A DNA stretch of 64,000 nucleotides from Parachryseolinea silvisoli (lineage in GTDB: Bacteria; Bacteroidota; Bacteroidia; Cytophagales; Cyclobacteriaceae), in contig NZ_JAIOAO010000003.1 of the NCBI RefSeq assembly GCF_021190955.1, forward strand, positions 930,001-994,000, written 5' to 3'. The notes beneath the pieces are model-generated. The model ran no database searches, was not told the DNA's origin, and saw only the letters and a program-made list of their open reading frames with translations. Both the position numbers and the translations under genes were made by a program. Positions within the stretch are counted from its first letter, which is position 1; the number at the start of each line of letters is the position of its first letter. This document shows, piece after piece, positions 3,633-17,227 of this stretch.

Positions 3633-5102
3633 TTAGATTATTTTATAATTGAGCATCATACCATCGTCTTCATGCTCAAGGTTGTGGCAATGGAATACGA
3701 AGACACCGGTGTAGTTCGGGAATGTCATAATTACTCGGACTTTCTCGCCAGGCATTAGAAGAATAGTATCCTTCCAACCTTTCTCGGAAGCAATCACTTT
3801 GTTCCGGGCACCCATTCTTTCCAATACCTGGAACTGAACGCCATGGATGTGCATGGGATGAATTTCATCACCCGCTAAGTTGTCGAACTCCCATATTTCT
3901 GTTGTTCCGGCTGAAACGGTTTCATCTACACGGTCCATTTCAAAAATCTTTCCGTTGATGGAGTGTCTACCCATTCCGCCATGTCCACCTTCTCCACCGA
4001 TGGTCTGTGCGATGTCGATAGTTCTTGTTTTGACCGAAAGGCTCTCACTAAGTGCGCTTATATTGGATAGGGTTGAAGGGAGTGTGAAGTCCGAAGTTCC
4101 TTCGCGATCAACCTTGAACTTCAGCAAACTGAAAGCCTGCCTTCCCTGCACATTGAATTCACTGAATTTATTGCTGACAAGATAGATTTCTTTGCCAACT
4201 GCCAGGTCAGAGAAATCAATGAGTACGTCCAGTCGTTCACCGGGTCCAAGCATAATATTTGAAACTGTTTCGGGAGTACGCAGCAAACCACCATCTGACC
4301 CGATGACGATCAGATTCGCTCCGCCGGTAAGACCAAGGTTGTAGACCCTAGCCGTTGAACCATTTAGTACTCGTAAGCGATACCACCGCGATGCAACATT
4401 GACAAATGGGGCATGTTGTCCGTTCACGAGGATTTGTTCTCCAAGATAGCCAGTCATGATCTCGTCATCATTGGGAGAATATTCAAGATTGTTTCCTTCG
4501 AAATGTTTGTCCTGAATAATGACTGGAATCTCGAATTCGCCCGAAGGCAAGTTCAATGCAGATTCTTCTGCATCGTTTATAATGAACATTCCTGCAAGCC
4601 CGAGAAAGACTTGTTTTGCAGTCAGTCCATGTGGATGAGGGTGATACCAATAGGTCCCGGCACGCTGAATGACCGGCAGTGAATAATTCAGGCTTCCTCC
4701 GGGCGATGCCACATCTCTTGGATGTCCGTCCATGTTTTCCGGCAGGATTAATCCATGCCAGTGAATATTGGTTTCTTCTGAAAGACTATTTTGCAGGGAT
4801 ACGTTTACGGTTTCGCCGGTATTAGCCCTTATCGTTGGACCTAGTAATCCATTCGCGTACGAAAGGGTTGTACTTGATTTGCCTTTTAGCAACTCGCTAA
4901 CGCTAAATTGCGCATTAAGTGAAGCGCTTCCGTTGCTGACGTAAGGTATTGTCAAAGGTCTATCAAAGGAGCCTTCGACAATCCAATTTGATTCTCCAAT
5001 CATATCTTCTTCGGTATGACATGCGTTAAGAACTAGGGACGATCCCATCCATGCTGTGAGAGCCGACAGGCTTGACCGTTTTATGAAATCTCTGCGTTTC
5101 AT
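3633..5102 (-). CDS. Multicopper oxidase (CueO/CopA laccase-like)
   Basis: A periplasmic three-domain multicopper oxidase of 489 residues, expected to oxidise Cu(I) to the less toxic Cu(II). The N-terminus has a twin-arginine signal (MKRRDFIKRSSLSALTAW) followed by a Cys that could be lipidated (LNACH). All four copper-site motifs are present: IHWHG near residue 113, WYHPHPHG near 150, HPMHIHG near 415 and HCHNLEHEDDGMM at 471-483 with type-1 Cys472. A short Met/Gly/His-rich stretch (GGEGGHGGMGRHS) in domain 3 resembles, in a small form, the Met-rich insert of CueO. It lies 3 bases after a DUF3347 lipoprotein gene, so both are likely on one transcript. Confidence 0.94.
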   Translation of the reverse strand: MKRRDFIKRSSLSALTAWMGSSLVLNACHTEEDMIGESNWIVEGSFDRPLTIPYVSNGSASLNAQFSVSELLKGKSSTTLSYANGLLGPTIRANTGETVNVSLQNSLSEETNIHWHGLILPENMDGHPRDVASPGGSLNYSLPVIQRAGTYWYHPHPHGLTAKQVFLGLAGMFIINDAEESALNLPSGEFEIPVIIQDKHFEGNNLEYSPNDDEIMTGYLGEQILVNGQHAPFVNVASRWYRLRVLNGSTARVYNLGLTGGANLIVIGSDGGLLRTPETVSNIMLGPGERLDVLIDFSDLAVGKEIYLVSNKFSEFNVQGRQAFSLLKFKVDREGTSDFTLPSTLSNISALSESLSVKTRTIDIAQTIGGEGGHGGMGRHSINGKIFEMDRVDETVSAGTTEIWEFDNLAGDEIHPMHIHGVQFQVLERMGARNKVIASEKGWKDTILLMPGEKVRVIMTFPNYTGVFVFHCHNLEHEDDGMMLNYKII

Positions 5103-5105
5103 TTA

Positions 5106-5750
5106 TTATTTTAATTTCTCTTTTACAGATCCACAGGTGAGCATCTTGTCTCCGAAGTATGGATTCTTAATCTGTGCCTGATCACTCAGCCAGTATGCGC
5201 CTTCGTTATTGAAAGCCATAGGACAGAATTCGTAGAACGCTTCTTTTCCCCCCAGGCCAAAGGCCTTGATACTTTTATATAAGTTGTCTGATAGATTGCT
5301 GAAGGCTTTTCTTTGGGTTTCAATGTCGCTGCTCGACTGAATTTCTTTCAATGCGCTTTGGATAGGAGACAGGTAGTTCATCCAATCATTGTGCGCGGCG
5401 CCCGACACAAGTTTCATGTCAACTTTTGCCAATGCTTCACCAGTTTTCTTCGCTTCGTCTTTAACGTTGCTTACGTCAGAGGCAACAAAGGCGTCCTTTA
5501 GTTCAACATAGGAAATGAAGACACTTGCAAGCTGATTCTGAAAGCTCGCGTCAACCTGGACCTGGGGCTCACTGGCTTCCGCAGCTGCGGTAGGTCCCGA
5601 AGCATATTCCGCACTATCTTTCACCGCACCTTCCTCATGGCCAGCGTGATTATCATCTTTTTTGTTTCCCGAACAATTTGCCAGGAGCGTGAATGCTGCT
5701 GCACTTACCAGCAGCGAGTAGAACATTGATTTGATTTTTATTGTATTCAT
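5106..5750 (-). CDS. DUF3347 lipoprotein
   Basis: A 214-residue lipoprotein; ATG 5750 is chosen because it gives a proper signal with lipobox LLANC. The mature N-terminus is acidic and His-containing (HAGHEE). It shares with the protein at 3099-3611 the helical core (YVELKDAFVASDVSNV) and the C-terminal block EFCPMAFNNEGAYWLS / NPYFGDKMLTCG. Membrane anchoring suggests it works beside the CusB-like adaptors whose genes lie just upstream. Function unknown; metal chaperone or sensor is an inference from the conserved CPM and MLxCG motifs and from context. Confidence 0.85.
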   Translation of the reverse strand: MNTIKIKSMFYSLLVSAAAFTLLANCSGNKKDDNHAGHEEGAVKDSAEYASGPTAAAEASEPQVQVDASFQNQLASVFISYVELKDAFVASDVSNVKDEAKKTGEALAKVDMKLVSGAAHNDWMNYLSPIQSALKEIQSSSDIETQRKAFSNLSDNLYKSIKAFGLGGKEAFYEFCPMAFNNEGAYWLSDQAQIKNPYFGDKMLTCGSVKEKLK

Positions 5751-5815
5751 GTTTTTAAGGTTATTACTGGTTAAATGGCTTTTCAAAAGCATCTTTACAG
5801 CACTTTTTCATATTA

Positions 5816-7036
5816 TTAATGAGAATGACCGGCCATCGGATCTGTTCCCTTTTTTAAAATTATTTCACTATACAGCAGGTATGCACCGGTTACAGCCACC
5901 GTGTCACCTTCGGTTAATCCTTCGGTGATTTCAACTTTCTCAAAATCTTCCATGCCGGTTTTCACCATTTGTGGCTTGAATGTGTTACGCCCTCGTTGCA
6001 CATAGACATGAGTTCCCCTGGCATCGCGGATCACTGCGTCAACCGGTAGGGATAAAGCTTTCTTGTTAGCATGGCTGAAGAACACTTGTGCTTGCATGCC
6101 CGGCTTGAATGACAGGGTCGGGTTTGATATCGATGCTCTCATTGACATAATCTGTGTGTTGGCGCGAAACTCGGGACTGAAAAAAGTAACCGTTGCTTCA
6201 ATCGGTTGATTTTCGAACCCACTTACTCTCACGGTTATTTTATCACCAACCTTCGCTACCTTGGCTTCATTTGGATATAATTCCGCTTCAAGCCAGAGAT
6301 GGGTTATGTTCTCAATCCGAAATAATGCCCCGCCCTCTGAAACATATTGTCCTTCGGATACTGAAATCTCTGTTACTATCCCCGAGCCAGGAGAAAGGAA
6401 TGTGATTCTATTCTGGGCGTTCTTATTTTTTGCCAAATGTTCAACCTGGGATTCGGAGAGCCCGTATAGCAGTAGCTTTCTCTTCGCAGCATCGAGAAAT
6501 GATTTGTAGCGCGTTTCGGACGAACCAAGTGCATCATATTGCTCTTTGGCTAGCAGGAATTCCCGTTGAAGAGTAAGTAATGTCTCACTGTACAATTCAT
6601 AGAGCGGTTCACCCTTTTGAATTGTACGCCCCGTTTCTTTTATAAATAGTTTTTCGACTCGTCCGGCTGCCCTGCTGCTAATGACTTGCGACAGGTCCTC
6701 ATTTTCTACAAGCTTACCATTGACAACAACCGATTCACCGATGGATTGAACGGAAACTTTTTGCGTAGTGATATTAGCAAGTTTTATCTGGCTATCCGTT
6801 AGCATCAAGTCACCAGTAGCTTCGGTTGTATTGGCATTTTTAGGCACGAGGTCCATTCCGCATACTGGACATTTACCTGGGCCATCCTGCACCACATTAG
6901 GGTGCATTGGACAAGTATATTTTGTCGCAGAACTTTCTTTCTTTGCACGATCATGGCTTGCATGTTCATCTGCTTGCTTTTCCTGCGAGCAAGCGAAGAA
7001 TATGAATGCGATTGTTATGAATAAAATGTGTTTCAT
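5816..7036 (-). CDS. cusB: CusB-like RND periplasmic adaptor with metal-binding N-terminus (adaptor 2)
   Basis: A membrane-fusion lipoprotein of 406 residues; ATG 7036 gives a lipobox (FFACS) and lies 1 base after the preceding stop. Residues 35-65 are a heavy-metal-binding module (CPMHPNV then CPVCGMDLV). Then follow barrel-sandwich and hairpin segments (GRVEKLFIKETGRTIQKGEP) and a C-terminal membrane-proximal domain (GLTEGDTVAVTGAYLLYSE). It ends in GHSH. The protein would link the inner-membrane RND pump to the TolC-like channel and may hand metal ions over through its N-terminal module. A second adaptor is encoded immediately upstream. Confidence 0.9.
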   Translation of the reverse strand: MKHILFITIAFIFFACSQEKQADEHASHDRAKKESSATKYTCPMHPNVVQDGPGKCPVCGMDLVPKNANTTEATGDLMLTDSQIKLANITTQKVSVQSIGESVVVNGKLVENEDLSQVISSRAAGRVEKLFIKETGRTIQKGEPLYELYSETLLTLQREFLLAKEQYDALGSSETRYKSFLDAAKRKLLLYGLSESQVEHLAKNKNAQNRITFLSPGSGIVTEISVSEGQYVSEGGALFRIENITHLWLEAELYPNEAKVAKVGDKITVRVSGFENQPIEATVTFFSPEFRANTQIMSMRASISNPTLSFKPGMQAQVFFSHANKKALSLPVDAVIRDARGTHVYVQRGRNTFKPQMVKTGMEDFEKVEITEGLTEGDTVAVTGAYLLYSEIILKKGTDPMAGHSH

Positions 7037-7037
7037 C

Positions 7038-8348
7038 TTATTTATTCGTTTTGATGAAGCTTTCACTATCGACCAGGTATTGCCCGTTGCTGGCGATTTC
7101 ATCCGATGACGAAAGCCCTTGTTTGATTTCTATGTGCTTTTCTGTACGAATGCCAGTCACCACTTTCTTAGGTCTGAAGACATTTTTCTCTTTTACAAAG
7201 ACTACGTCATCAACACCAAGGTGAAGTACAGCTTCCTTTGGCACCCATAGTGCCTCAACTGCGCTACTTTCGATCACCGCTTTTACCAAATGTCCGATAT
7301 GGAGACGTTCCGTGTTTTTGGTATAAACTCTTACTGTGAGAAATTCCTGACCTTCGTTGAAAAAAGGTTGGACGAAATCAATTGTTCCATCGTCACGGTG
7401 CTCATCACCGAAGTCAAGTTTTACTTTACTGCCTTTCTTTACCGTTGCAGTAAGCGTTGAAGCGATGTTCAATTCAACTCGTAATGCGGAAGGATTAACA
7501 ACCTTAAATAGAGTCTGCCCCGATGTTACATAACTTCCCTCGCGAATGAGTTGGTCACTTTTGCTTACAGCTGAGCTCGCGGATGTAGATGGCGATGTGC
7601 TCGCATTTCCACTCATTCCATCAGTCATTCCTCCGGCGGATGTTGACGCTCTTGGTGATGTCATTGGCGCAATCGGTGTCTGTTGCCCGTCAGCAAGAAC
7701 ATAACCGTCATAAGTACTGTAGATCGCGAACGTATTCTTTGGGTTTTTGCTTTGAATGAGATCGTTGATTTGTGCATCTGTTGCGCCAAGAAGTTTTAGA
7801 CGTTCTTTCGCACTCTGTATAAGTGCCTCGTTCTTCGAATCGTTCTCAATTACGAATAACAGTTCTCGCTGTGCTGTCAGTAGCTCTGGACTGTAAATCT
7901 CTGCGACCTTTTGTCCCTTACGTACTTGCTGAAAGGCATATTTGAGAAATACTTTTTCAAGTCGTCCACCGATTCGTGTTGGGATTGTATAGACGTTCCT
8001 TGTGTCGTAGGTTACTACGCCCTGCGCTTCTGTAGAAACAGGCATTGACATGTATTCGCCCTTGATCGTTTTAATAGAGGCAATGACGGTTTCACTTGGG
8101 GACTTAATCAGTTTCGAAAGATCCTCTGTAATTTCAACTTCTTCGCCGGGACGAGCTTTCCGAACGAGATCCATGCCGCATACCGGACACGTTCCTGGTT
8201 TATCAGAAATGGCCGTGGGGTGCATTGGGCATGTATAGGTGTCCGCATGCTCTGCGTGCTCTCCGCCTTTGTTGCAAGATGCTACCAACACGAGTAACGG
8301 CAGGAGCATAATTGGGAGTGACAATTTATTTCTCCAATTGTTTTTCAT
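7038..8348 (-). CDS. cusB: CusB-like RND periplasmic adaptor with metal-binding N-terminus (adaptor 1)
   Basis: A 436-residue lipoprotein (lipobox VASCN) of the membrane-fusion family. It has the same N-terminal module as its neighbour (CPMHPTAI then CPVCGMDLV, residues 39-62), a barrel-sandwich pair (GGRLEKVFLKYAFQQVRKGQ and REGSYVTSGQTLFKVV) and a helical hairpin (LTAQRELLFVIENDSKNEA). A low-complexity Ser/Thr/Ala/Met insert (about residues 225-260) interrupts the lipoyl-like domain and is odd for the family. The gene overlaps the end of the TolC-like gene by 23 bases. The two adaptors are divergent in sequence and are not a recent duplication. Confidence 0.9.
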   Translation of the reverse strand: MKNNWRNKLSLPIMLLPLLVLVASCNKGGEHAEHADTYTCPMHPTAISDKPGTCPVCGMDLVRKARPGEEVEITEDLSKLIKSPSETVIASIKTIKGEYMSMPVSTEAQGVVTYDTRNVYTIPTRIGGRLEKVFLKYAFQQVRKGQKVAEIYSPELLTAQRELLFVIENDSKNEALIQSAKERLKLLGATDAQINDLIQSKNPKNTFAIYSTYDGYVLADGQQTPIAPMTSPRASTSAGGMTDGMSGNASTSPSTSASSAVSKSDQLIREGSYVTSGQTLFKVVNPSALRVELNIASTLTATVKKGSKVKLDFGDEHRDDGTIDFVQPFFNEGQEFLTVRVYTKNTERLHIGHLVKAVIESSAVEALWVPKEAVLHLGVDDVVFVKEKNVFRPKKVVTGIRTEKHIEIKQGLSSSDEIASNGQYLVDSESFIKTNK

Positions 8349-9579
8349 AGCTTACGATCATGTTAAAGTATTCCTGAGTCTTTTCGATGTAGTCCATTTG
8401 CGCCATGTTTAATGCTTCCCATGCATCGATTACAATGGGGAGCTGTTCACGATTTTCCTCGTAAGCCAACATTAAGGTCTGGTAGTTTTTCCGCAACGCT
8501 GGAATGATCTTAGAGTCATAATTCGCCAGTTGCTGCTTCATCCGCGCTAACTGAGACGCCATGCCCGTTAGCATGCCCCGTGTTTCGATTAAAATTGCCT
8601 GACGGCCTTTTTTCATCGCCTCGATGTCATATTGCATTCCCTTCACTTCCGACTTGTACATTTTGGAAGACCACGGTGCGATCGGAATTGAAACCATTGC
8701 CATCCCAGTGAACTGGGTTGGCATATTTCCAATTGGCTGCATGTGGTCAAATCGGATCTTGAAATCCGGCCTTGATTGATAGCGCTGTAGCTGTTGATTC
8801 AAACGCATTACTTCAATTGTCTTGTCGATCTGTTTGATATCGCTCCGTTGTGTGCTGAGCGCTGCTGTGTCGTAAATCACCTGGTTCGGTTCATATGTGA
8901 TGTGGGTTGCTGTATCAATCATGATGAGCGTTTCGACCGGAAGGTTCATCAGGCTTTTTAATCTATATGAACTTTCCTCTATAGACCCATTCGTCATCTG
9001 GATCATATTCTGCACTTCACTCAGCCTTCCCTCTGCTTTATAGATATTTCCAAGGCTTCCCTGATTGTAGGGGTATCTGATTCTTGCGAGTTTCAGCATC
9101 AGGTCCATGATGCGTTCATTCTCTTTTAAAACCGTGAGTTTCTGTTCGGCCACTAACCATTGGTAATACATCGTTTTTGCTTCGCTTCGTAATTGATTGA
9201 ACTGAGCGGAGCGATTTTCACTTTCAACCGCGGCCCTTGATGAAAGGTATCTGCGATTCGCATTGAGCTTGGACGGATTGGTAATTTCTTGCTCGATGGA
9301 GAACATCCAGGCACCTTTGTCTCGTTCATCCATCAACATTTGGTTGGGATAGGGAGTCATGAAAGTCCCCGCGCCGATCATCGGGGCCATAAGGCTTCTC
9401 GCGCCCCCGGCGTATGTATTCAGGGCTTTGACTTTGCTGTCGTACTCCTGCAACATTGGGTTTTGCTTATCGATAAGATGCAGAACACTGTCGAGCGTGA
9501 TCACTTGAGCAGTTGCAATAGCATTCAGGCCTATCCAAAATGCTGCAAACAAGAAAGATATCTTAATGCTTAACTTCAT
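8326..9579 (-). CDS. TolC/CusC-like outer-membrane efflux channel
   Basis: An outer-membrane efflux protein of 417 residues; ATG 9579 (MKLSIKISFLF) gives a signal peptide ending at TAQ. Two similar halves rich in long helices are seen, with typical stretches such as ESENRSAQFNQLRSEAKTMY, KLARIRYPYNQGSLGNIYKA and YQTLMLAYEENREQLPIV. It forms the exit duct for the CusA/CusB complex. The start overlaps the end of the pump C-half gene by 17 bases and its end overlaps adaptor 1, so pump, channel and adaptors are one operon. Confidence 0.9.
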   Translation of the reverse strand: MKLSIKISFLFAAFWIGLNAIATAQVITLDSVLHLIDKQNPMLQEYDSKVKALNTYAGGARSLMAPMIGAGTFMTPYPNQMLMDERDKGAWMFSIEQEITNPSKLNANRRYLSSRAAVESENRSAQFNQLRSEAKTMYYQWLVAEQKLTVLKENERIMDLMLKLARIRYPYNQGSLGNIYKAEGRLSEVQNMIQMTNGSIEESSYRLKSLMNLPVETLIMIDTATHITYEPNQVIYDTAALSTQRSDIKQIDKTIEVMRLNQQLQRYQSRPDFKIRFDHMQPIGNMPTQFTGMAMVSIPIAPWSSKMYKSEVKGMQYDIEAMKKGRQAILIETRGMLTGMASQLARMKQQLANYDSKIIPALRKNYQTLMLAYEENREQLPIVIDAWEALNMAQMDYIEKTQEYFNMIVSYEKQLEK

Positions 9580-11488
9580 ATACTTCAAGTTTTCCAAATT
9601 TCCGTAGTTCATATTCTTTCGTCATCAGGAAGATGAGTGGCGTCACGAGAAGAATGTGTGTTGATGATGTAAGAACTCCGCCAATCATGGGAAGCACAAT
9701 TGGTTTCATTACATCGCTTCCAACACCGGTAGCCCACAACACCGGGATCAGACCAAACAGTGCCACGCAGACCGTCATCAATTTTGGGCGCAGTCGTTTA
9801 GCCGCGCCGGCGATTACATATTCCCGAAGCTCTTCGCGCGTAATTGTTTCGCTTGAATTGCCTCTGAGTTTGACGAGCTGCTGCATAGCATCGTTCAGAT
9901 AGATCACCATTACTACGCCTGTCTCTACAGCGATTCCAAACAGGGCAATGAAACCAACGGCCACGGCAACGGAGAGATTAACGCCATAGAAGTATACCAT
10001 GTATGCTCCACCGATCAGAGCAAAGGGAACTGTAATCAAGCTAAAGAATGCCTCGCGGATGGAATGAAATGCCAGGTATAGCGATACGAAAATGATCAAC
10101 AATACAACCGGTAGAATGACTATGAGCGTTTGTTTTCCGCGGATGAGATTTTCGTATTGGCCACTCCATTCGAGATAATATCCGTTGGGAAGGGCATCCA
10201 GATTTTTATTCAGCGTCTCCATTGCTTCCTGAACTGTGCTTCCAAGATCGCGATCTCTTACGTTGAACAACACGGCACCTCGTAACAGGGCATTTTCAGA
10301 CACAATCATTGGCGGTCCATTTTCGAATTTGATGTCCGCCACGGCGGAGAGAGGTACTGTTCCAAGTGCAGGTGTCTGAATAGGAATTCGCTTTAACTGC
10401 TCTACGCTGTTTCTATAATCTTGCGATAACCGCACACTGATGGTAAAGCGTTGACGCCCTTCGATGGTTTGGCCGATAGGACTACCACCAATGGCGGATT
10501 CTACAATCATGTTAACGTCATTCACACTTAATCCATATCTGCCGAGTGCGTCTCTGTTGATATCAATCGTCAGGTATTTTCCTCCGGTAATCGGATCTAC
10601 ATACAGGTCTTTCACTCCCGGAACATTTGCAAGCGCGGCTTTTACTTTTGTAGAGAGTACCGCGATGCTGTCGAGGTTCTGGCCGTATACTTTTATCCCA
10701 ACATCCGTTCGGATGCCGGTAGCCAGCATGTTTATTCTGTTGATGATGGGTTGAGTCCAGCCGTTCACAACTCCCGGAATCTGCATTTTAGCATCAAGCT
10801 CATTAATGATGTCATTCTTGGTGATTCCTTCTCTCCATTCTGATTTTGGTTTCAGCATAATGATCGTTTCAATCATACTGATAGGAGAGTTGTCCGTTGC
10901 TGTGCTCGCCCGGCCTGCCTTGCCCAATACTTTGTCAACTTCGGGGACAGACTTAATGATCTTGTCCTGGACTTGAAGAATTCTTTTCGCCTCTTCATTT
11001 GATACATCCGGAAGTGTTACAGGCATGAAAAGGATAGACTGCTCATCCAGTGGCGGCATAAATTCACTTCCAAGGCCGATCATCAACGGGACGCTGACCG
11101 CCAATGCGAGGATGTTGACACCAATCGTTGTTTTACGCCACTTCATGCAGGTGCGGATGATTGGCTCGTAGATCTTTTCAAGAAACCGATTGATAGGATT
11201 GTGCTTTTCGTCCCTGAATCTTCCTTTCATAAAAAAGGAGATTATAACGGGCGCGAGCGTTACAACGAGTATCGCATCAACCAGCATGATGAATGTCTTT
11301 GTGTAGGCAAGTGGGTGAAATAACTTTCCTTCCTGACCTGTGAGCATAAACACAGGAAGGAATGATGTTATGATGATGATGGTTGAATAGAAGACACCCC
11401 GTGAAACCTGCTTAGAGGATTTCTCGATGATCGCAAGCCTTTCGGCATCATCTATTTTGTTATATGGTTTTCGAGAGAAGAGTTTCAT
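9563..11488 (-). CDS. cusA: CusA/CzcA-type RND pump 1, C-terminal half (TM5-TM12)
   Basis: The second half of a heavy-metal RND permease: 641 residues starting in the cytoplasmic loop before TM5 (SFLPVFMLTGQEGKLFHPLA) and running through TM5-6, the second periplasmic domain (with NRINMLATGIRTDVGIKVYG) and TM8-12. The equivalents of the CusA proton-relay residues Glu939 and Lys984 are present (IAVETGVVM and RLRPKLMT). The start is ATG 11488; an in-frame TAA stands two codons upstream, so it cannot be read through from the N-half, whose stop is at 11499-11501 in another frame. Full-length CusA is about 1,040 residues; the two halves here sum to 1,068. Confidence 0.9.
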   Translation of the reverse strand: MKLFSRKPYNKIDDAERLAIIEKSSKQVSRGVFYSTIIIITSFLPVFMLTGQEGKLFHPLAYTKTFIMLVDAILVVTLAPVIISFFMKGRFRDEKHNPINRFLEKIYEPIIRTCMKWRKTTIGVNILALAVSVPLMIGLGSEFMPPLDEQSILFMPVTLPDVSNEEAKRILQVQDKIIKSVPEVDKVLGKAGRASTATDNSPISMIETIIMLKPKSEWREGITKNDIINELDAKMQIPGVVNGWTQPIINRINMLATGIRTDVGIKVYGQNLDSIAVLSTKVKAALANVPGVKDLYVDPITGGKYLTIDINRDALGRYGLSVNDVNMIVESAIGGSPIGQTIEGRQRFTISVRLSQDYRNSVEQLKRIPIQTPALGTVPLSAVADIKFENGPPMIVSENALLRGAVLFNVRDRDLGSTVQEAMETLNKNLDALPNGYYLEWSGQYENLIRGKQTLIVILPVVLLIIFVSLYLAFHSIREAFFSLITVPFALIGGAYMVYFYGVNLSVAVAVGFIALFGIAVETGVVMVIYLNDAMQQLVKLRGNSSETITREELREYVIAGAAKRLRPKLMTVCVALFGLIPVLWATGVGSDVMKPIVLPMIGGVLTSSTHILLVTPLIFLMTKEYELRKFGKLEVYEVKH

Positions 11489-11498
11489 ACGTTAATTG

Positions 11499-12782
11499 TT
11501 ACTTGTCCTCGGGGTTTAGTTCTGAGTACCGATGGGACAGGTTTTTATAAGAGTTCTCGGCCATGATAATTCCGTTATCAACGATGACCCCAATGGCAAG
11601 TGCTATTCCTGTCAGCGACATAATATTGGATGTAATACCAAACGCATTCAGAAAAATGAAGCTTGTTGCAATCGTGATGGGGATCTGAATGATGATGCTA
11701 GCCGCGCTCCTCCAGTGGAACAGGAACACAATGACCACCAAAGACACCACGATCATTTCTTCGATCAATGTTGTCTTGATAGAGGATACGGATTCCTCGA
11801 TCAGGTAGCTACGATCATATACGATATCGAATTTCATTCCCTGCGGAAACCCTTTCGCTACTTCAGTCATTTTCTTCTTCACCGCTTTGATCACTTCATC
11901 CGCGTTCTCGCCATAGCGCATCACCACAATTCCACCGACCACTTCACCTTCTCCGTCCTGATCAAAAATTCCGAGGCGTGTTTCGCCCGTCATCTGAACG
12001 GTTGCGATGTCACGAACCCGGACTGAAACAGTATTCACGGTCCTTACAGAAATGTTTTCGATCTCCTCTATTGATTTAAGGTAGCCAGTGGTCTTAATGA
12101 TGTATCCGATGTCGCTTTGTTCGAACTTTCTTCCACCTGCCTCATTATTATTGGCGCGTACGGACTGAATGACCTCTTGTGCAGAAAGCCCGTAATAGCT
12201 AAGCTTGTTCGGATCAACCGTGATTTGATATTGTTTTTGAAAGCCCCCGAACGATGCAAGCTCACTTACTCCCTGTACATTCTGCAGCGCGAATTTTACA
12301 TACCAGTCCTGGATGGCGCGTTGTTCGCCAAGGTCCATTCCGGGTGCATCGAGGGTATACCATAAAATATGGCCAACGCCTGTTCCATCCGGGCCGAGGG
12401 TAGGAGTGACCCCCTCCGGCAAGAGACGGGTAGCATAATTGAGTCGTTCGAGAACACGCTCGCGGGCCCAGTATACGTCGGTGTCATCGTTGAAGATGAC
12501 ATAGACGAAGCTCATTCCAAACATAGAAGCGCCGCGTACATATTTAACCTGAGGGAGGCCCTGAAGGTTTGTTACGAGTGGGTATGTTACCTGATCCTCA
12601 ATGATCTGAGGGCTACGGCCCATCCATTCCGTAAAGACGATCACCTGATTTTCCGACAAGTCTGGTATCGCGTCTATTTTATTTACTTTCACCGAATAGA
12701 CTCCCCAGGCAAATAGTCCAACTGCAACAAGCAGTACTAAGAATCTATTTCGAAGAGAGAAAGATATTAAGCTTTCAATCAT
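11499..12782 (-). CDS. cusA: CusA/CzcA-type RND pump 1, N-terminal half (TM1-TM4)
   Basis: The first half of a heavy-metal RND permease: TM1 (residues 12-32), the first periplasmic domain (DAIPDLSENQVIVFTEWMGR, SMFGMSFVYVIF, LGPDGTGVGHILWYTLD), TM2-TM4, and then a natural stop after the TM4 tail (ENSYKNLSHRYSELNPEDK). Asp402 in VIVDNGIIM corresponds to CusA Asp405 of the proton relay. The other relay residues are on the separately encoded C-half 10 bases downstream, so both polypeptides would be needed for one working pump. No decay is seen in either half. Confidence 0.9.
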   Translation of the reverse strand: MIESLISFSLRNRFLVLLVAVGLFAWGVYSVKVNKIDAIPDLSENQVIVFTEWMGRSPQIIEDQVTYPLVTNLQGLPQVKYVRGASMFGMSFVYVIFNDDTDVYWARERVLERLNYATRLLPEGVTPTLGPDGTGVGHILWYTLDAPGMDLGEQRAIQDWYVKFALQNVQGVSELASFGGFQKQYQITVDPNKLSYYGLSAQEVIQSVRANNNEAGGRKFEQSDIGYIIKTTGYLKSIEEIENISVRTVNTVSVRVRDIATVQMTGETRLGIFDQDGEGEVVGGIVVMRYGENADEVIKAVKKKMTEVAKGFPQGMKFDIVYDRSYLIEESVSSIKTTLIEEMIVVSLVVIVFLFHWRSAASIIIQIPITIATSFIFLNAFGITSNIMSLTGIALAIGVIVDNGIIMAENSYKNLSHRYSELNPEDK

Positions 12783-12882
12783 GACTTAAAATGAAGAATG
12801 TAAAAAGAGGAGTATTGTGATCGCGTTAGAGCAAAGCGATTACACGAAGAGCGGGTTGCCCTTCAAAATGGATGAAAATAAA

Positions 12883-13290
12883 TCAGATTAGGAAAACTTG
12901 ATGCTCGACCGTAAGGTCACAAGATCGCAATGGAGGATCGTAGTTGTAGTATTTGAACTGCGCGAGCGGTGAAGCTGGAATAACTTCTGATATAAGAATA
13001 ACAGGTTGCTCGATGTCCATCGGAGCGGGAGCAACGAAATGAATATGCTCGATTGAACCTTTAAAATCGGTGCCTTCGTGATAAACAAGCTCATCCTGGC
13101 AACAGGCAGGTTTCATGTGCTTGTGACAAGCTGGTAAAGCTTTTTCTTTCTGGCAGCTGTCAGCTTTTCCAAAGAGGGCAATGTTTTGAACTTCACCCAT
13201 ACAGATGTGCATGCCGACCGTAAAACTGGTAGCTGAAACCAGCACCAGGACGGCTAACAAAACGGCTGATATGGAACGGATTGCCTTCAT
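12883..13290 (-). CDS. HYC_CC_PP family protein
   Basis: A 135-residue exported protein with a signal-like hydrophobic N-terminus (ISAVLLAVLVLVSATSFTVG). It has the three signatures after which this Bacteroidota family is named: GMHICMGEVQNIALFG, ACCQDE near residue 72, and NYDPPLRS near residue 120. Additional Cys/His pairs (SCQKE, ACHKHMKP) suggest a metal-binding surface. The family regularly accompanies heavy-metal efflux genes; its role is unknown. Here it stands between the two pump gene pairs. Confidence 0.85.
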   Translation of the reverse strand: MKAIRSISAVLLAVLVLVSATSFTVGMHICMGEVQNIALFGKADSCQKEKALPACHKHMKPACCQDELVYHEGTDFKGSIEHIHFVAPAPMDIEQPVILISEVIPASPLAQFKYYNYDPPLRSCDLTVEHQVFLI

Positions 13291-13392
13291 TTGATCTCCA
13301 AATCTAACGTAATTCTTTGACTTTGGATTTATACTTTACGATTAATGCGTTATAGAATTCGTTGAAATCGCCCAAAAAATGGGTTTTTCGGG

Positions 13393-15279
13393 CTAATCTT
13401 CCAATAATTTGTGTTCAATCCGACCGCTTTTTGCCAATTCCTGCTCTCTGACGTAAGCATAGATAACCGGAAGCACGATAAGCACAAAGATCGTGGAGGT
13501 CAACAGGCCAAACACAAAGGGAATAGTAATTGGCTTCATCACATCGCTTCCGGTCCCGGTGGCAAATAGTACTGGCATTAAGCCAATGACGTCCACTAGC
13601 ACGGTCATGAGTTTAGGGCGAAGTCGTTGAACAGCACCTTCATATACCGCGTCTTCAATGATTTCGTTTGTCACCTGGCCGGAAGAATGATTTTTTATTT
13701 TGAAGTATAGTGCGTTGTTGAGATAGACAAGCATTAAAACACCAGTCTCCACCGCGATACCAAACAATGCTATAAAGCCAACGGCCACAGCAACCGAGAA
13801 ATTGACATCAAAGAAGTGCAAAGAGTATGCTCCACCAACCAGTGCGACTGGAATGCTGCTTAACACAATCAGTACCTCTCTCATGCTATTAAACGTGAGG
13901 TATAACACTCCAAGGATGATGATCAGCACGATCGGAATGATCACCATCAACCTGTTCTGTGCCCGAACCTGATTTTCGTACTGGCCGCTCCAATTCAAAT
14001 AGTAGCCTTTGGGCAGGTTCTTCATGGCTTTCTCCAGGCGTTCCTTGGCTTCTGAAACCGTGCTTCCCATGTCTCTGCCCCTGACGTTGAAAAGAAGCGT
14101 ACCACGAAGCATAGCGTTCTCTGAGTTAATCATTGGCGGCCCTTCGGTAACAATAACATCTGCGACTGCCGAAAGTGGAATAGGACCGAGATTGGTTGTC
14201 TGCACCTGAAGATTTTTGATTTGATTGATGGTGTTGCGGTAGTCTTGTGCAAAGCGCACATTTACCGGAAAGCGCTGACGAGCTTCAATCGTGGTTGTCG
14301 CGTTCATGCCGCCAAGTGCAGTTTCGATGAACATGTTAACGTCATCTACAGTAAGTTCATATCGCCCTATTTCTTCTTTTCGAATCTTTATATCGATGTA
14401 TTTGCCACCGACAATTGGTTCCACATACAGGTCCGCAACTCCCGCAAGGCCTTCGAGCTGTTTTTTAAATTCATGTGCAAGCACATTGATCGAGTCGAGA
14501 TTCTGACCATAGATTTTGATTCCAACATCTGTCCTTATGCCGGTTGATAGCATGTTGATTCGGTTGATGATTGGCTGGGTGTAGCTGTTAATCACGCCCG
14601 GTATTGCCAGTTTACTGTTTAATTCACGGATGATTTCTTCCTTTGTAATCCCATCCCGCCATTCTCGTTGAGGCTTGAGAATGATTATTGTTTCAATCAT
14701 ACTGATGGGAGCATTGTCCGTAGCGGTGTTAGCACGACCGGCCTTTCCTAAAACATTTTCCACTTCTGGTATTGACTTGATTATTCTATCCTGTACTTGA
14801 AGGAGGCGCTTTACTTCGTTGTTCGAAATATCCGGCAAGGTGACAGGCATGAATAGCAATGAGCCTTCATCCAGGGACGGCATGAACTCCGTTCCAAGGC
14901 TGATAACGAGTGGGACACTGCCTAGCACCAGGGCAAGCGCCAGTCCAAGCGTGACCTTCTTCCATCTCAGGCACCATCGTATGATCGGCCCGTAGATCCG
15001 TGTGAGAAACTTGCTGATAGGGTGTCTGCTTTCGGGTCTGACTTTTCCTTTTAAGAACAATGCCATCAGCACCGGCACCAGCATGATTGCGACAAAGCCT
15101 GAACCGATCATGGCAAATGTCTTTGTCCATACGAGCGGGGAGAAGAGTTTGTGTTCCTGACCGGTTAAAAAAAGGATCGGACTGAACGAGATGAGCGTAA
15201 TGAGAATAGAACTCACAACAGCTTTGCCGATCAGCTGCGAGGACTTTTCAATCTTATCTATGCGTGTTTCTTCCATCAT
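13393..15279 (-). CDS. cusA: CusA/CzcA-type RND pump 2, C-terminal half (TM5-TM12)
   Basis: Paralogue of the gene at 9563-11488 with the same architecture: it begins in the loop before TM5 (SFSPILFLTGQEHKLFSPLV) and ends after TM12. The relay residues Glu (IAVETGVLM) and Lys (RLRPKLMT) are conserved, as is the NRINMLSTGIRTDVGIKIYG segment of the periplasmic domain. ATG 15279 overlaps the TGA of the N-half by one base (TGATG), a classical coupling junction; TTG 15282 and ATG 15276 are alternative starts. No adaptor or channel gene follows this pump, so it may use those of pump 1. Confidence 0.9.
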   Translation of the reverse strand: MMEETRIDKIEKSSQLIGKAVVSSILITLISFSPILFLTGQEHKLFSPLVWTKTFAMIGSGFVAIMLVPVLMALFLKGKVRPESRHPISKFLTRIYGPIIRWCLRWKKVTLGLALALVLGSVPLVISLGTEFMPSLDEGSLLFMPVTLPDISNNEVKRLLQVQDRIIKSIPEVENVLGKAGRANTATDNAPISMIETIIILKPQREWRDGITKEEIIRELNSKLAIPGVINSYTQPIINRINMLSTGIRTDVGIKIYGQNLDSINVLAHEFKKQLEGLAGVADLYVEPIVGGKYIDIKIRKEEIGRYELTVDDVNMFIETALGGMNATTTIEARQRFPVNVRFAQDYRNTINQIKNLQVQTTNLGPIPLSAVADVIVTEGPPMINSENAMLRGTLLFNVRGRDMGSTVSEAKERLEKAMKNLPKGYYLNWSGQYENQVRAQNRLMVIIPIVLIIILGVLYLTFNSMREVLIVLSSIPVALVGGAYSLHFFDVNFSVAVAVGFIALFGIAVETGVLMLVYLNNALYFKIKNHSSGQVTNEIIEDAVYEGAVQRLRPKLMTVLVDVIGLMPVLFATGTGSDVMKPITIPFVFGLLTSTIFVLIVLPVIYAYVREQELAKSGRIEHKLLED

Positions 15280-16574
15280 CAATTCGTTTCGGCTTCACCA
15301 CCAATTGTCTTCATTGCATTCTCCACCATTACAATGCCTGCATCGACTAAATCACCTACTGCCAATGCCACGCCAGCCAAAGACATTATGTTTGACGTAA
15401 TCCCGAACCACTTCATGAGTATGAAAGCAAAAAGAACGGAGACAGGTATTGTAATCACAACGATCAGGGCGCTCCTGACGTGTAATAAAAAGATGAACAG
15501 CACGATGGCAACTACTATGATTTCTTCGGTAACCGCTTCCTTCAACGTGTCGATGGTAGCATTGATGAGATCAGACCGATCATAGGCGGGTTTAATATTT
15601 ATTCCTGCAGGCAGACCTTTTTTTATTTCCTCAATTTTTGTCTTGACGCGATCGATAACCTGTTTTGCATTTTCGCCATAGCGCATAATCACTATTCCGC
15701 CTACCTTTTCACCCTCACCATTTTCATCAACAATCCCTAAGCGCAAGTCGCCTCCCATTTGTACGGTGCCGATGTCTCTTACTCTTATGGGTGTGGTGTT
15801 TTCTGTTCTAAGCGGGATGTTCTCAATCTCCTCTATGTTTTTGATGTAACCTGTTGTTTTGACAATGTATCCGATGTCTGACAATTCAAACTTTCGACCG
15901 CCGACTTCATTGTTGTTCTCTTTGATTTTGTTCACAACTTCCATCAATGGTATTCCATGGTAACGAAGTTTCATCGGATCAACCACAACCTGATATTGCT
16001 TCTGATATCCTCCGAAGGATGCCACTTCACTCACACCTTCGACTGTTTGAAGGCCAAAACGCACATACCAATCTTGTAACGCTCTTAGTTCTCCAAGATC
16101 ATAGCCAGGAGCATCAAGAGTGTACCAATAGACATGCCCAAGGCCCGTGCCATCAGGGCCAAGGGTAGGAGTAACATTTTGTGGAAGTAATCTTGTTGCA
16201 TAGTTCAGCCGTTCCAGCACGCGTGCTCGTGCCCAATAGATATCGGCATCGTCTTCGAAAATGATAAAGACGAAACTCATTCCGAACATACTTGAACCAC
16301 GAATGTTCTTGACTTTAGGAATGCCCTGGAGGTTTGATGTTAGGGGATAGGTAATCTGGTCTTCGATGATCTGGGGATTTCGCCCCATCCACTCGGTATA
16401 AATGATAACCTGATTTTCCGACAGATCCGGGATTGCATCGACGGGCGTGTTATAAACGGAATACATCCCGTAGATGATCATGATGGAATACATCCCGTAG
16501 ATGATCATGATGGAATACATGATGATCACCATCCATTTGTTTTTGATCGACCAGCTTATCAGTTTCTTAATCAT
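15279..16574 (-). CDS. cusA: CusA/CzcA-type RND pump 2, N-terminal half (TM1-TM4)
   Basis: The first half of a second heavy-metal RND permease, 431 residues from ATG 16574 (MIKKLISWSIKNKWMV). It ends just after TM4 (MVENAMKTIGGEAETN), at the same place as pump 1. The relay Asp is Asp411 in DLVDAGIVM, nine residues later than Asp402 of pump 1. The shift is fully explained by a 9-residue tandem duplication in TM1 (SIMIIYGMY twice). Periplasmic-domain motifs are intact (DAIPDLSENQVIIYTEWMGR, LGPDGTGLGHVYWYTLD). It is the first pump gene of the island as transcribed. Confidence 0.9.
   Translation of the reverse strand: MIKKLISWSIKNKWMVIIMYSIMIIYGMYSIMIIYGMYSVYNTPVDAIPDLSENQVIIYTEWMGRNPQIIEDQITYPLTSNLQGIPKVKNIRGSSMFGMSFVFIIFEDDADIYWARARVLERLNYATRLLPQNVTPTLGPDGTGLGHVYWYTLDAPGYDLGELRALQDWYVRFGLQTVEGVSEVASFGGYQKQYQVVVDPMKLRYHGIPLMEVVNKIKENNNEVGGRKFELSDIGYIVKTTGYIKNIEEIENIPLRTENTTPIRVRDIGTVQMGGDLRLGIVDENGEGEKVGGIVIMRYGENAKQVIDRVKTKIEEIKKGLPAGINIKPAYDRSDLINATIDTLKEAVTEEIIVVAIVLFIFLLHVRSALIVVITIPVSVLFAFILMKWFGITSNIMSLAGVALAVGDLVDAGIVMVENAMKTIGGEAETN
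16458..16520. repeat. 27-bp perfect tandem duplication inside pump 2 TM1
   Basis: A 27-base unit starting ggaatacatcccgtagatga occurs at 16458-16484 and again, identically, at 16485-16511, followed by a 9-base partial third copy (16512-16520). It is in frame and adds nine residues to the first membrane helix compared with pump 1. Confidence 0.95.
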
Positions 16575-16759: not shown

Positions 16760-17227
16760 TTAGTTCTTTATCTCCGTGTCAATTTCTTTTGCATCTTCAT
16801 TTTCCGAGCTGAAAAAACAATGGAGCGCGCAGCCGTGAGATTTGTCTTTATAGCCAGCTTCGACTTTGGCAATATCCTTTCCAGCCACTTTTACGACTCC
16901 GTCAGGATCGGTGGTTACTACATGACCTTTCATAGACTTGTAGCTTCCGTCTTTCTGGATCTTTCCAATCATCTTTCCACTCGCAGTTGACACATCGCCA
17001 TGGCCGGAGATTACCCCGATTACTTTGCCGGTGACGTCACATGCTTTGCCATTTTTAATGGAACCCAGTGGTTTACCATCATCATCGACTACGGTACCAT
17101 CTGTCTGAAGCCGCGGATGCATTCCTCTGTGCTTGGGCGGCATTTCCCTTTTCTGCGCATCTTGAGCGTGGATAAATGAAAATGCAAAAAGCATCAGCAT
17201 CATCGTTAAAATTGATTTTGTTTTCAT
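16760..17227 (-). CDS. Secreted repeat protein (5-fold beta-flower-like)
   Basis: A 155-residue protein with signal peptide (MLFAFSFIHAQ). The mature chain has about five short, degenerate repeats of the form DxxGKxIGxI (DDDGKPLGSIKNG, VTGKVIGVISGHG, ASGKMIGKIQKDG, then DPDGVVKVAGKD), typical of a small closed beta repeat fold seen in Bacteroidota exported proteins. The C-terminus has two Cys around a His (GCALHCFF) and an acidic tail. It is the first gene of the metal island as transcribed, about 185 bases before pump 2. Function unknown; a periplasmic metal-related role is a guess from position. Confidence 0.7.
   Translation of the reverse strand: MKTKSILTMMLMLFAFSFIHAQDAQKREMPPKHRGMHPRLQTDGTVVDDDGKPLGSIKNGKACDVTGKVIGVISGHGDVSTASGKMIGKIQKDGSYKSMKGHVVTTDPDGVVKVAGKDIAKVEAGYKDKSHGCALHCFFSSENEDAKEIDTEIKN

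Follow-up and report, generated by a model that had tools for sequence, protein, structure and literature searches.

CusA-like RND pumps encoded as two half-genes in Parachryseolinea silvisoli: a probable ancestral gene fission in the TM4–TM5 loop

The stretch of DNA analyzed here (hereafter the window) comprises 64,000 nucleotides of the Parachryseolinea silvisoli contig NZ_JAIOAO010000003.1 (positions 930,001 to 994,000, forward strand) and carries the genes for two CusA/CzcA-type pumps of the resistance-nodulation-division (RND) superfamily. Calling of open reading frames (ORFs) on the window revealed that each of these pumps is encoded by two ORFs on the minus strand, and in both cases the break point is located in the cytoplasmic loop between transmembrane helices (TM) 4 and 5, downstream of the conserved E-N of TM4. 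This two-gene make-up had been claimed in an earlier interpretation of the DNA from its letters alone (the sequence-only reading), and the four ORFs, as well as both types of junction that had been described between them, were recovered at the following window positions:

15279..16574, minus strand: pump 2 N-half, 431 amino acids (aa); TM1–TM4 by CusA homology; TIGR00914 positions 1–421; equivalents of D405 and M391/M410
15279..15281, minus strand: pump 2 junction, TGATG; the N-half stop TGA and the C-half ATG share one base
13393..15279, minus strand: pump 2 C-half, 628 aa; TM5–TM12 by CusA homology; TIGR00914 positions 434–1041; equivalents of E939, K984, T987 and M573/M623/M672
11499..12782, minus strand: pump 1 N-half, 427 aa; TM1–TM4 by CusA homology; TIGR00914 positions 1–425
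11489..11498, minus strand: pump 1 junction; stop TAA, a 10-bp gap, then ATG; a stop closes the C-half frame just upstream
9563..11488, minus strand: pump 1 C-half, 641 aa; TM5–TM12 by CusA homology; TIGR00914 positions 430–1036

The start of the pump 2 C-half is ambiguous: the sequence ATGATG offers two possible ATGs, and the ORF caller used a TTG one codon earlier.

The TIGR00914 profile for CusA/CzcA proteins spans 1051 positions and has a curated cut-off of 701.45 bits, below which all four halves fall when scored singly (454 to 643 bits). Since the halves of each pair jointly fill this profile, each pair amounts to a whole pump divided at the same site, the N-halves of pumps 1 and 2 ending at profile positions 425 and 421 and the C-halves beginning at positions 430 and 434, as the sequence-only reading had proposed. 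CusA/CzcA permeases are defined by 12 TMs in one polypeptide; the window pumps spread these helices, counted by CusA homology only, over two ORFs per pump.

For all four halves, the best solved homologue is the Escherichia coli CusA protein (E-values of 8e-157 and 3e-166 for the C-halves, and of 3e-118 and 3e-129 for the N-halves). Residue equivalents were read by eye from the pairwise alignments, in which the chain index corresponds to the CusA residue number plus 7. The proton relay (D405, E939, K984, T987), the copper site (M573/M623/M672 and E625), and the relay methionines M391, M410, M486, and M1009 are present in both pumps. M403 is substituted by Ile in pump 1 and by Leu in pump 2, while M501 is Ile in pump 1 and Met in pump 2. 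Hence, the proton relay and the copper site bear out the statement that all family motifs are intact, whereas M403 in both pumps and M501 in pump 1 are exceptions to it; with some of the relay methionines replaced, any transport out of the cytoplasm may deviate from that of CusA. According to the accessible part of a study on CusA (PMC8092243), TM4 holds both D405 and M391/M403/M410; D405 bonds with K984, E939, and T987, and the methionines form the pairs M410–M501, M403–M486, and M391–M1009. The Asp residue indeed resides in TM4 of the N-half, and the Glu and Lys residues on the C-half, just as had been anticipated. Because TM4 ends the N-half and all of its partners are found on the C-half, every relay or methionine-pair position of TM4 described in that part of the source spans two chains.

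The arrangement of the junctions in relatives of the two pumps allows one to judge whether the halves are made separately. We collected 178 N/C pairs, representing 152 distinct junctions, 150 of them with a start found; L064 (where an N base lies close to the junction) and L205 (which lacks an identified start) were included in the counts of frames and left out of the gap bins. Programmed frameshifting or stop read-through, by which the halves would be fused and the pump would really be a single chain, would be in keeping with the nearly invariable adjacency of the halves and with the frequency of tight junctions, 29 of 150 of which have a four-base ATGA overlap. However, the C-half is found in relative frame 0, 1, and 2 at 24, 53, and 75 of the 152 distinct junctions, and the spacing varies between overlap and a gap as wide as 620 bp (1–30 bp at 82 and more than 100 bp at 20 of the 150 junctions). 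Moreover, several lineages have an entire gene inserted between the halves: a 203-aa methyltransferase-like ORF in loci from Spirosoma, Rudanella, and Fibrella (L071, L077, L101), and a gene of the 23S_rRNA_IVP family (PF05635) in five further loci (L019, L193, L196, L200, L212). Two genomes (G247 and G263) have a permuted order (C-half, TolC-like gene, adaptor, adaptor, N-half), so that the N-half is situated downstream of the C-half at distances of 3.9 and 3.6 kb, respectively. The three middle genes match the window's TolC-family and adaptor genes at 33–36% identity, and each half occurs as a single close copy in either genome, where the matches that follow are single-chain pumps at 33–37% identity. 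A frameshifted or read-through gene would have a fixed frame and adjacent ORFs; the three frames, intervening genes, and permuted order found here refute frameshifting as a general mechanism for the clade, and we regard a truly single-chain pump as extremely improbable.

Two observations on these intergenic regions may be recorded separately. The PF05635 genes (L019, 3437–3793; L193, 1084–1449; L196, 1083–1457; L200, 1081–1458; L212, 5511–5885) lie between pump halves, which is an unusual location given that this family takes its name from insertions within rRNA genes. In the permuted locus of G263 (L140, 7487–7582), about 30 codons directly before the C-half are 56–67% identical to the N-terminal metal-binding part of the window's adaptors.

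The two-gene arrangement is widespread among relatives of the window pumps. In the genome scans, two-gene status was assigned from the length of the C-half open frame, the N-half being located only in the fetched loci, and clade membership was assigned by identity (54% or more), except for rows placed on trees; in the phylum, order, and class scans, up to three candidates were scored per genome, so that any further copies would be missed. Among the best 80 contig loci of a longer list, 72 are two-gene, five are single-chain, and three carry a C-half alone at a contig end; their hosts include Cytophagales, Chitinophaga, Pedobacter, and Spirosoma. A scan of 59 genomes, namely that of P. silvisoli and those of relatives (E 1e-150), yielded matches in 15 genomes, and all 25 places are frames of 631–673 aa. 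Within the P. silvisoli genome, all other matched places, the N-halves of the window excepted, lie in open frames of 1025–1147 aa, and the split is therefore special to the two window pumps there. The phylum scan (395 genomes, E 1e-150) gave matches in 120 genomes; the 30 best places (24 genomes, 55% identity or more) are all frames of 633–728 aa, whereas the weaker places (55% or less, from family f36 on) are single frames of 1031–1187 aa, except for three frames (913, 720, and 622 aa) that appear truncated or damaged. In the order scan (390 genomes, E 1e-200), 79 genomes had a match, the 88 places comprising 85 short frames (563–752 aa) and three single-chain ones; the class scan (395 genomes, E 1e-225) had matches in 51 genomes, with 56 short and four single-chain frames (one at a contig edge) among 60 places. 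Taken together, these four overlapping scans contain 143 genomes with a clade-like pump, 136 of which are two-gene and seven single-chain only.

Split pumps are also present on plasmids. Among 72,556 plasmid records, 12 have a best place of at least 60% identity, and all of these are from Bacteroidota. Those of Runella, Haliscomenobacter, and Hymenobacter sp. DG01 carry two adjacent genes, each annotated in RefSeq with the generic name "efflux RND transporter permease subunit". For the Spirosoma and Pontibacter plasmids, the gene tables of the records are incomplete and omit the pump genes, but ORF analysis yields two genes. A Pelobacter pump with 53% identity is encoded by one gene. On a plasmid of Hymenobacter radiodurans (L169, 2682–5997), which stood outside the analysis of N/C pairs, a relative of about 50% identity has its C-half match in two pieces, with only the later piece annotated, and is possibly decaying. 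Three loci with longer matches (L074, L086, L107) that had been considered as insertions turned out to be ordinary split pairs on inspection, and the apparent downstream N-half of a pump 2 in L032 was an artefact of the locus edge.

Strong purifying selection acts on both halves. When the window genes were compared with near relatives, dN/dS (the ratio of non-synonymous to synonymous substitution rates) was 0.012–0.036 in 11 of 20 comparisons, the other nine being saturated in dS; the least saturated comparison (L030) gave 0.032 and 0.036. The earlier claim that the split has been kept by selection is thus supported in both halves wherever dN/dS was measurable. Decay, in which pseudogene formation or sequencing errors broke an ordinary single-chain gene, might be suspected from a few damaged members (G716 with one TGA, and a Hymenobacter plasmid whose C-half is irregular) and from a 9-aa tandem duplication in TM1 of pump 2 that is absent from the relatives compared. 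Yet, the low dN/dS values, the two genes in 136 of 143 genomes as well as on finished plasmids, and the intact catalytic residues refute it as an explanation for the clade; that decay accounts for the window pumps is scarcely credible, while a loss of function in pump 2 alone is possible. The duplication itself is an exact 27-bp tandem repeat in the N-half (window 16467–16520) that adds nine residues; it is absent from every relative whose TM1 was compared, and it may either disturb TM1 or be an assembly artefact.

The evolutionary origin of the split was assessed with trees built on concatenated N and C alignments, calculated with FastTree (113 rows) and IQ-TREE (98 and 102 rows); the two IQ-TREE sets were obtained after removal of rows with a short N or short C part, C-only rows, near-identical rows, and some named single-chain outgroup rows. 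All two-gene pumps, of both the pump 1 and the pump 2 type, form one clade with a support of 100, as expected from the earlier claim that the split is old and predates the divergence of the two pumps. This clade branches among the rows of single-chain heavy-metal efflux (HME) RND pumps, consistent with common descent, and single-chain pumps lie outside of it. However, some single-chain members are nested within the two-gene clade (L047, L049, L063, L068, and L100; L201 to L203; L221, L222, and L224; L223); L201 stems from a one-contig genome, and L223 lies within the pump 2 branch. The approximately unbiased (AU) test rejected a grouping of the 27 single-chain rows on one side of the 98-row tree (p 1e-7), and it also rejected a single clade of the first eight nested single-chain rows (p 4e-42). 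Since they reside inside the two-gene clade and the AU test rejects their grouping with the outgroup, these nested relatives are best read as re-fusions. The sequence-only reading had named close relatives with single-chain genes and a plain frameshift as evidence that would speak against it: such relatives do exist and are 82–87% identical in the C-half, but they are nested, their placement with the outgroup is rejected, and no plain frameshift was found.

One could alternatively envision that many independent fissions occurred at one hot spot and that the nested single-chain genes are ancestral. The cytoplasmic TM4–TM5 loop varies in length from 38 to 82 aa in single-chain relatives, and breaks at this position may therefore be tolerated. 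When re-fusion is barred, however, parsimony on the 102-row tree calls for 18 fissions, as compared with one fission and five re-fusions; the AU test rejects a branch that has every single-chain row on one side (p 1e-7), and the loops of the nested single-chain pumps (39–50 aa) are devoid of most of the extra residues found at the new chain ends of the split pumps. We consider repeated fission to be quite unlikely. A single fission that took place before the pump types diverged, apparently in an ancestor within the Bacteroidota, is the shortest account of these trees; the number of five re-fusions is less sure than "several", because the starred branches dictate a minimum of five changes in total.

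The chain ends created by the fission are longer than the loop that they replace. The median length of the TM4–TM5 loop is 41 residues in the single-chain outgroup (25 rows) and 44.5 in the re-fused pumps (eight rows), whereas the tail of the N-half and the head of the C-half measure 19 and 44 residues, respectively, in the split pumps (medians of 170 and 167 rows, with C-half starts picked by proximity to the N-half stop), about 20 residues more in sum. The C-half heads contain on average 7.7 basic and 4.5 acidic residues, and their first 12 residues carry a mean net charge of +3.1. This basic head might fix TM5, which is now the first helix of its chain, with its N-terminus inside the cell, an idea that fits the re-fused forms because they lack most of the extra residues. 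An amphipathic helix in the head received mild support (mean z of 0.64 in 114 heads, 44% of them above 1), and we retain the simpler description as a basic head. The re-fused linker of L100 (4647–7869) resembles a short repeat-derived insert (SSGEGPGVR) and is unlike that of its sister L063.

Distances among the N-halves and those among the C-halves correlate with a mirror-tree r of 0.91 across 71 two-gene loci (maximum of 500 permutations 0.21), and at none of these loci is a half nearest to the other pump type. These data bear on the proposal that the split has been retained for a novel advantage, for instance because the two halves could be dosed independently or because halves of both pumps could enter mixed trimers. 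The tandem position of the two pumps in the window, together with one TolC-family and two adaptor genes, would be compatible with such an arrangement; but the absence of exchanged nearest halves, the return to one chain in about five lineages, and the fact that a pump 2 gene or piece was found in the flanks of just five of 80 pump 1 loci (some of these flanks being short) argue against it, as do eight genomes of the class scan whose single match is of the pump 2 type (G821, G864, G868, G872, G921, G945, G986, G1008). The suggestion of independent dosage or a different assembly made by the sequence-only reading is hence unsupported, and we view a new benefit of the split as unlikely; in light of the repeated re-fusions and the optional pump 2, the split seems to be tolerated rather than needed. 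More doubtful still is the specific notion that the tandem halves form mixed pumps from up to four kinds of chain that use one TolC/adaptor set, with TM4 being exchangeable between the C-halves; if true, mixed halves would represent a combinatorial copper exporter built from two split genes.

We therefore favor the view that the window encodes two copper/silver-type (CusA-like) RND pumps that go back to an ancestral fission of the permease gene and whose halves are translated apart and rejoin as a CusA-like protomer, an interpretation to which we assign a probability of about 0.86. The fission would have occurred in the cytoplasmic TM4–TM5 loop in an ancestor in which the pump types had not yet diverged, and each half would since have been translated as a separate protein, the N-half providing TM1–TM4 and the first periplasmic domain, and the C-half TM5–TM12 and the second. 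Aided by its basic head, TM5 might insert with its N-terminus in the cytoplasm, and the two halves would associate in the inner membrane to form one CusA-like protomer. By analogy with CusA, three N/C pairs would then make up a trimer that docks onto shared CusB-like adaptors and TolC. The N-half would contribute, in its terminal helix TM4, the proton acceptor D405 and the relay methionine positions, and the C-half their partners K984, E939, T987, M486, M501, and M1009, so that proton coupling would operate across a non-covalent helix–helix contact. Association, 1:1 stoichiometry, metal specificity, and the role of the basic head are all presumed here, as is trimer formation, which is modeled on CusA.

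Several points weigh against this view. The groups compared in the AU tests were named after the tree had been seen, and the underlying phylogeny was obtained by a quick search under LG+G4 without a mixture model and contains a long branch in the basal row L132. Several dS values are high (up to 3.1), which renders the dN/dS ratios rough. As both halves share one frame at 24 of 152 distinct junctions, read-through could add some fused chain at those loci, and some of the CusA relay methionines are not kept in the window pumps. AlphaFold models of single halves are weak and silent on association: their mean pLDDT (predicted local distance difference test) values are 64.9 and 59.5 (18 and 22 alignment rows), and although their best matches in the PDB are CusA/CusBA, the root-mean-square deviation (rmsd) is about 11 Å, so that they add nothing beyond sequence homology. 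The last two helices of the N-half have low model confidence, which might reflect a need for the partner chain, but because the alignment is shallow we draw no inference from this.

Downstream of the two pump units on the minus strand come genes for a TolC-family protein, two adaptors, a DUF3347 protein, and a multicopper oxidase, the adaptor and TolC-family genes being adjacent to the pumps; the genes in and around the tandem are as follows:

12883..13290, minus strand: Cys/His/Met-containing protein, 135 aa, separating the two pumps; hydrophobic N-terminus; no Pfam match
8326..9612, minus strand: TolC-family outer membrane factor (TIGR01844, E 9e-7)
7038..8348, minus strand: periplasmic adaptor 1, CusB/CzcB-like (TIGR00999, E 1e-26)
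5816..7102, minus strand: periplasmic adaptor 2, CusB-like (PRK09783, E 1e-39)
5106..5792, minus strand: DUF3347 protein, a recurrent neighbor of such operons, also near split pumps on Runella and Pontibacter plasmids
3633..5102, minus strand: multicopper oxidase

Just upstream of pump 2 (window 16760–17227) lies a gene for a 5-fold beta-flower protein (PF21785). The Runella and Haliscomenobacter plasmids have a member of the same family annotated near their split pumps, and the protein may therefore be part of the copper set.

Among known systems, the E. coli CusA protein (HME-RND, TIGR00914; PDB accession codes 3K07, 3NE5, and 7KF5) is the closest counterpart of the window pumps. Both share homology over the whole chain, D405/E939/K984/T987, and M573/M623/M672/E625, and their operons share CusB-like adaptors and a TolC-family gene. 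They differ in that the roughly 1,050 residues of CusA form a single chain, whereas the window pumps consist of two genes cut after TM4, have new ends that add about 20 residues, and have lost M403 and, in the case of pump 1, M501. Searches of the open literature, with subscription papers mostly outside and with most queries targeting RND pumps that are split or encoded by two genes, or CusA from Bacteroidota, listed no paper on a CusA or other HME pump that is split in nature. MexB was reportedly divided into two halves by Eda in 2003, a laboratory construct judging from the title. In the part of a Burkholderia survey that was available (PMC2891726), most RND permeases are single-chain proteins, and its reference list includes MexB in two halves.

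SecD and SecF, which also belong to this comparison, are often encoded by two genes. In the available portion of PMC8277102, the 12-helix RND unit of SecD/SecF is described as two six-helix parts that are either heterodimeric or fused, and TM1 plus TM3–TM6 of AcrB are treated as one repeat (R1) in the accessible part of PMC4359379. Going by these partial sources, SecD/SecF is cut between the repeats (6+6), that is, between TM6 and TM7, whereas the window pumps are cut inside R1 (4+8), between the equivalents of TM4 and TM5. MdtBC-type heterotrimers likewise contain more than one kind of RND chain per pump, as far as the available portion of PMC8277102 goes, but MdtBC combines two full-length homologous pumps, whereas the window pumps would each combine the halves of one. 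A census of metal pumps that relies on the TIGR00914 cut-off would miss the split pumps, because each window half scores below it and the halves in the plasmid records are named generically as RND permease subunits. If our interpretation is correct, two chains synthesized apart can make up one RND protomer, even with a break that falls immediately behind the helix coupling protons to metal and within a five-helix stretch regarded as a single moving unit in the accessible AcrB work. One fission, inserted genes, a permuted order, and several re-fusions among functional-looking orthologues amount to a natural experiment in which the split and the fused forms of the same pump can be compared.

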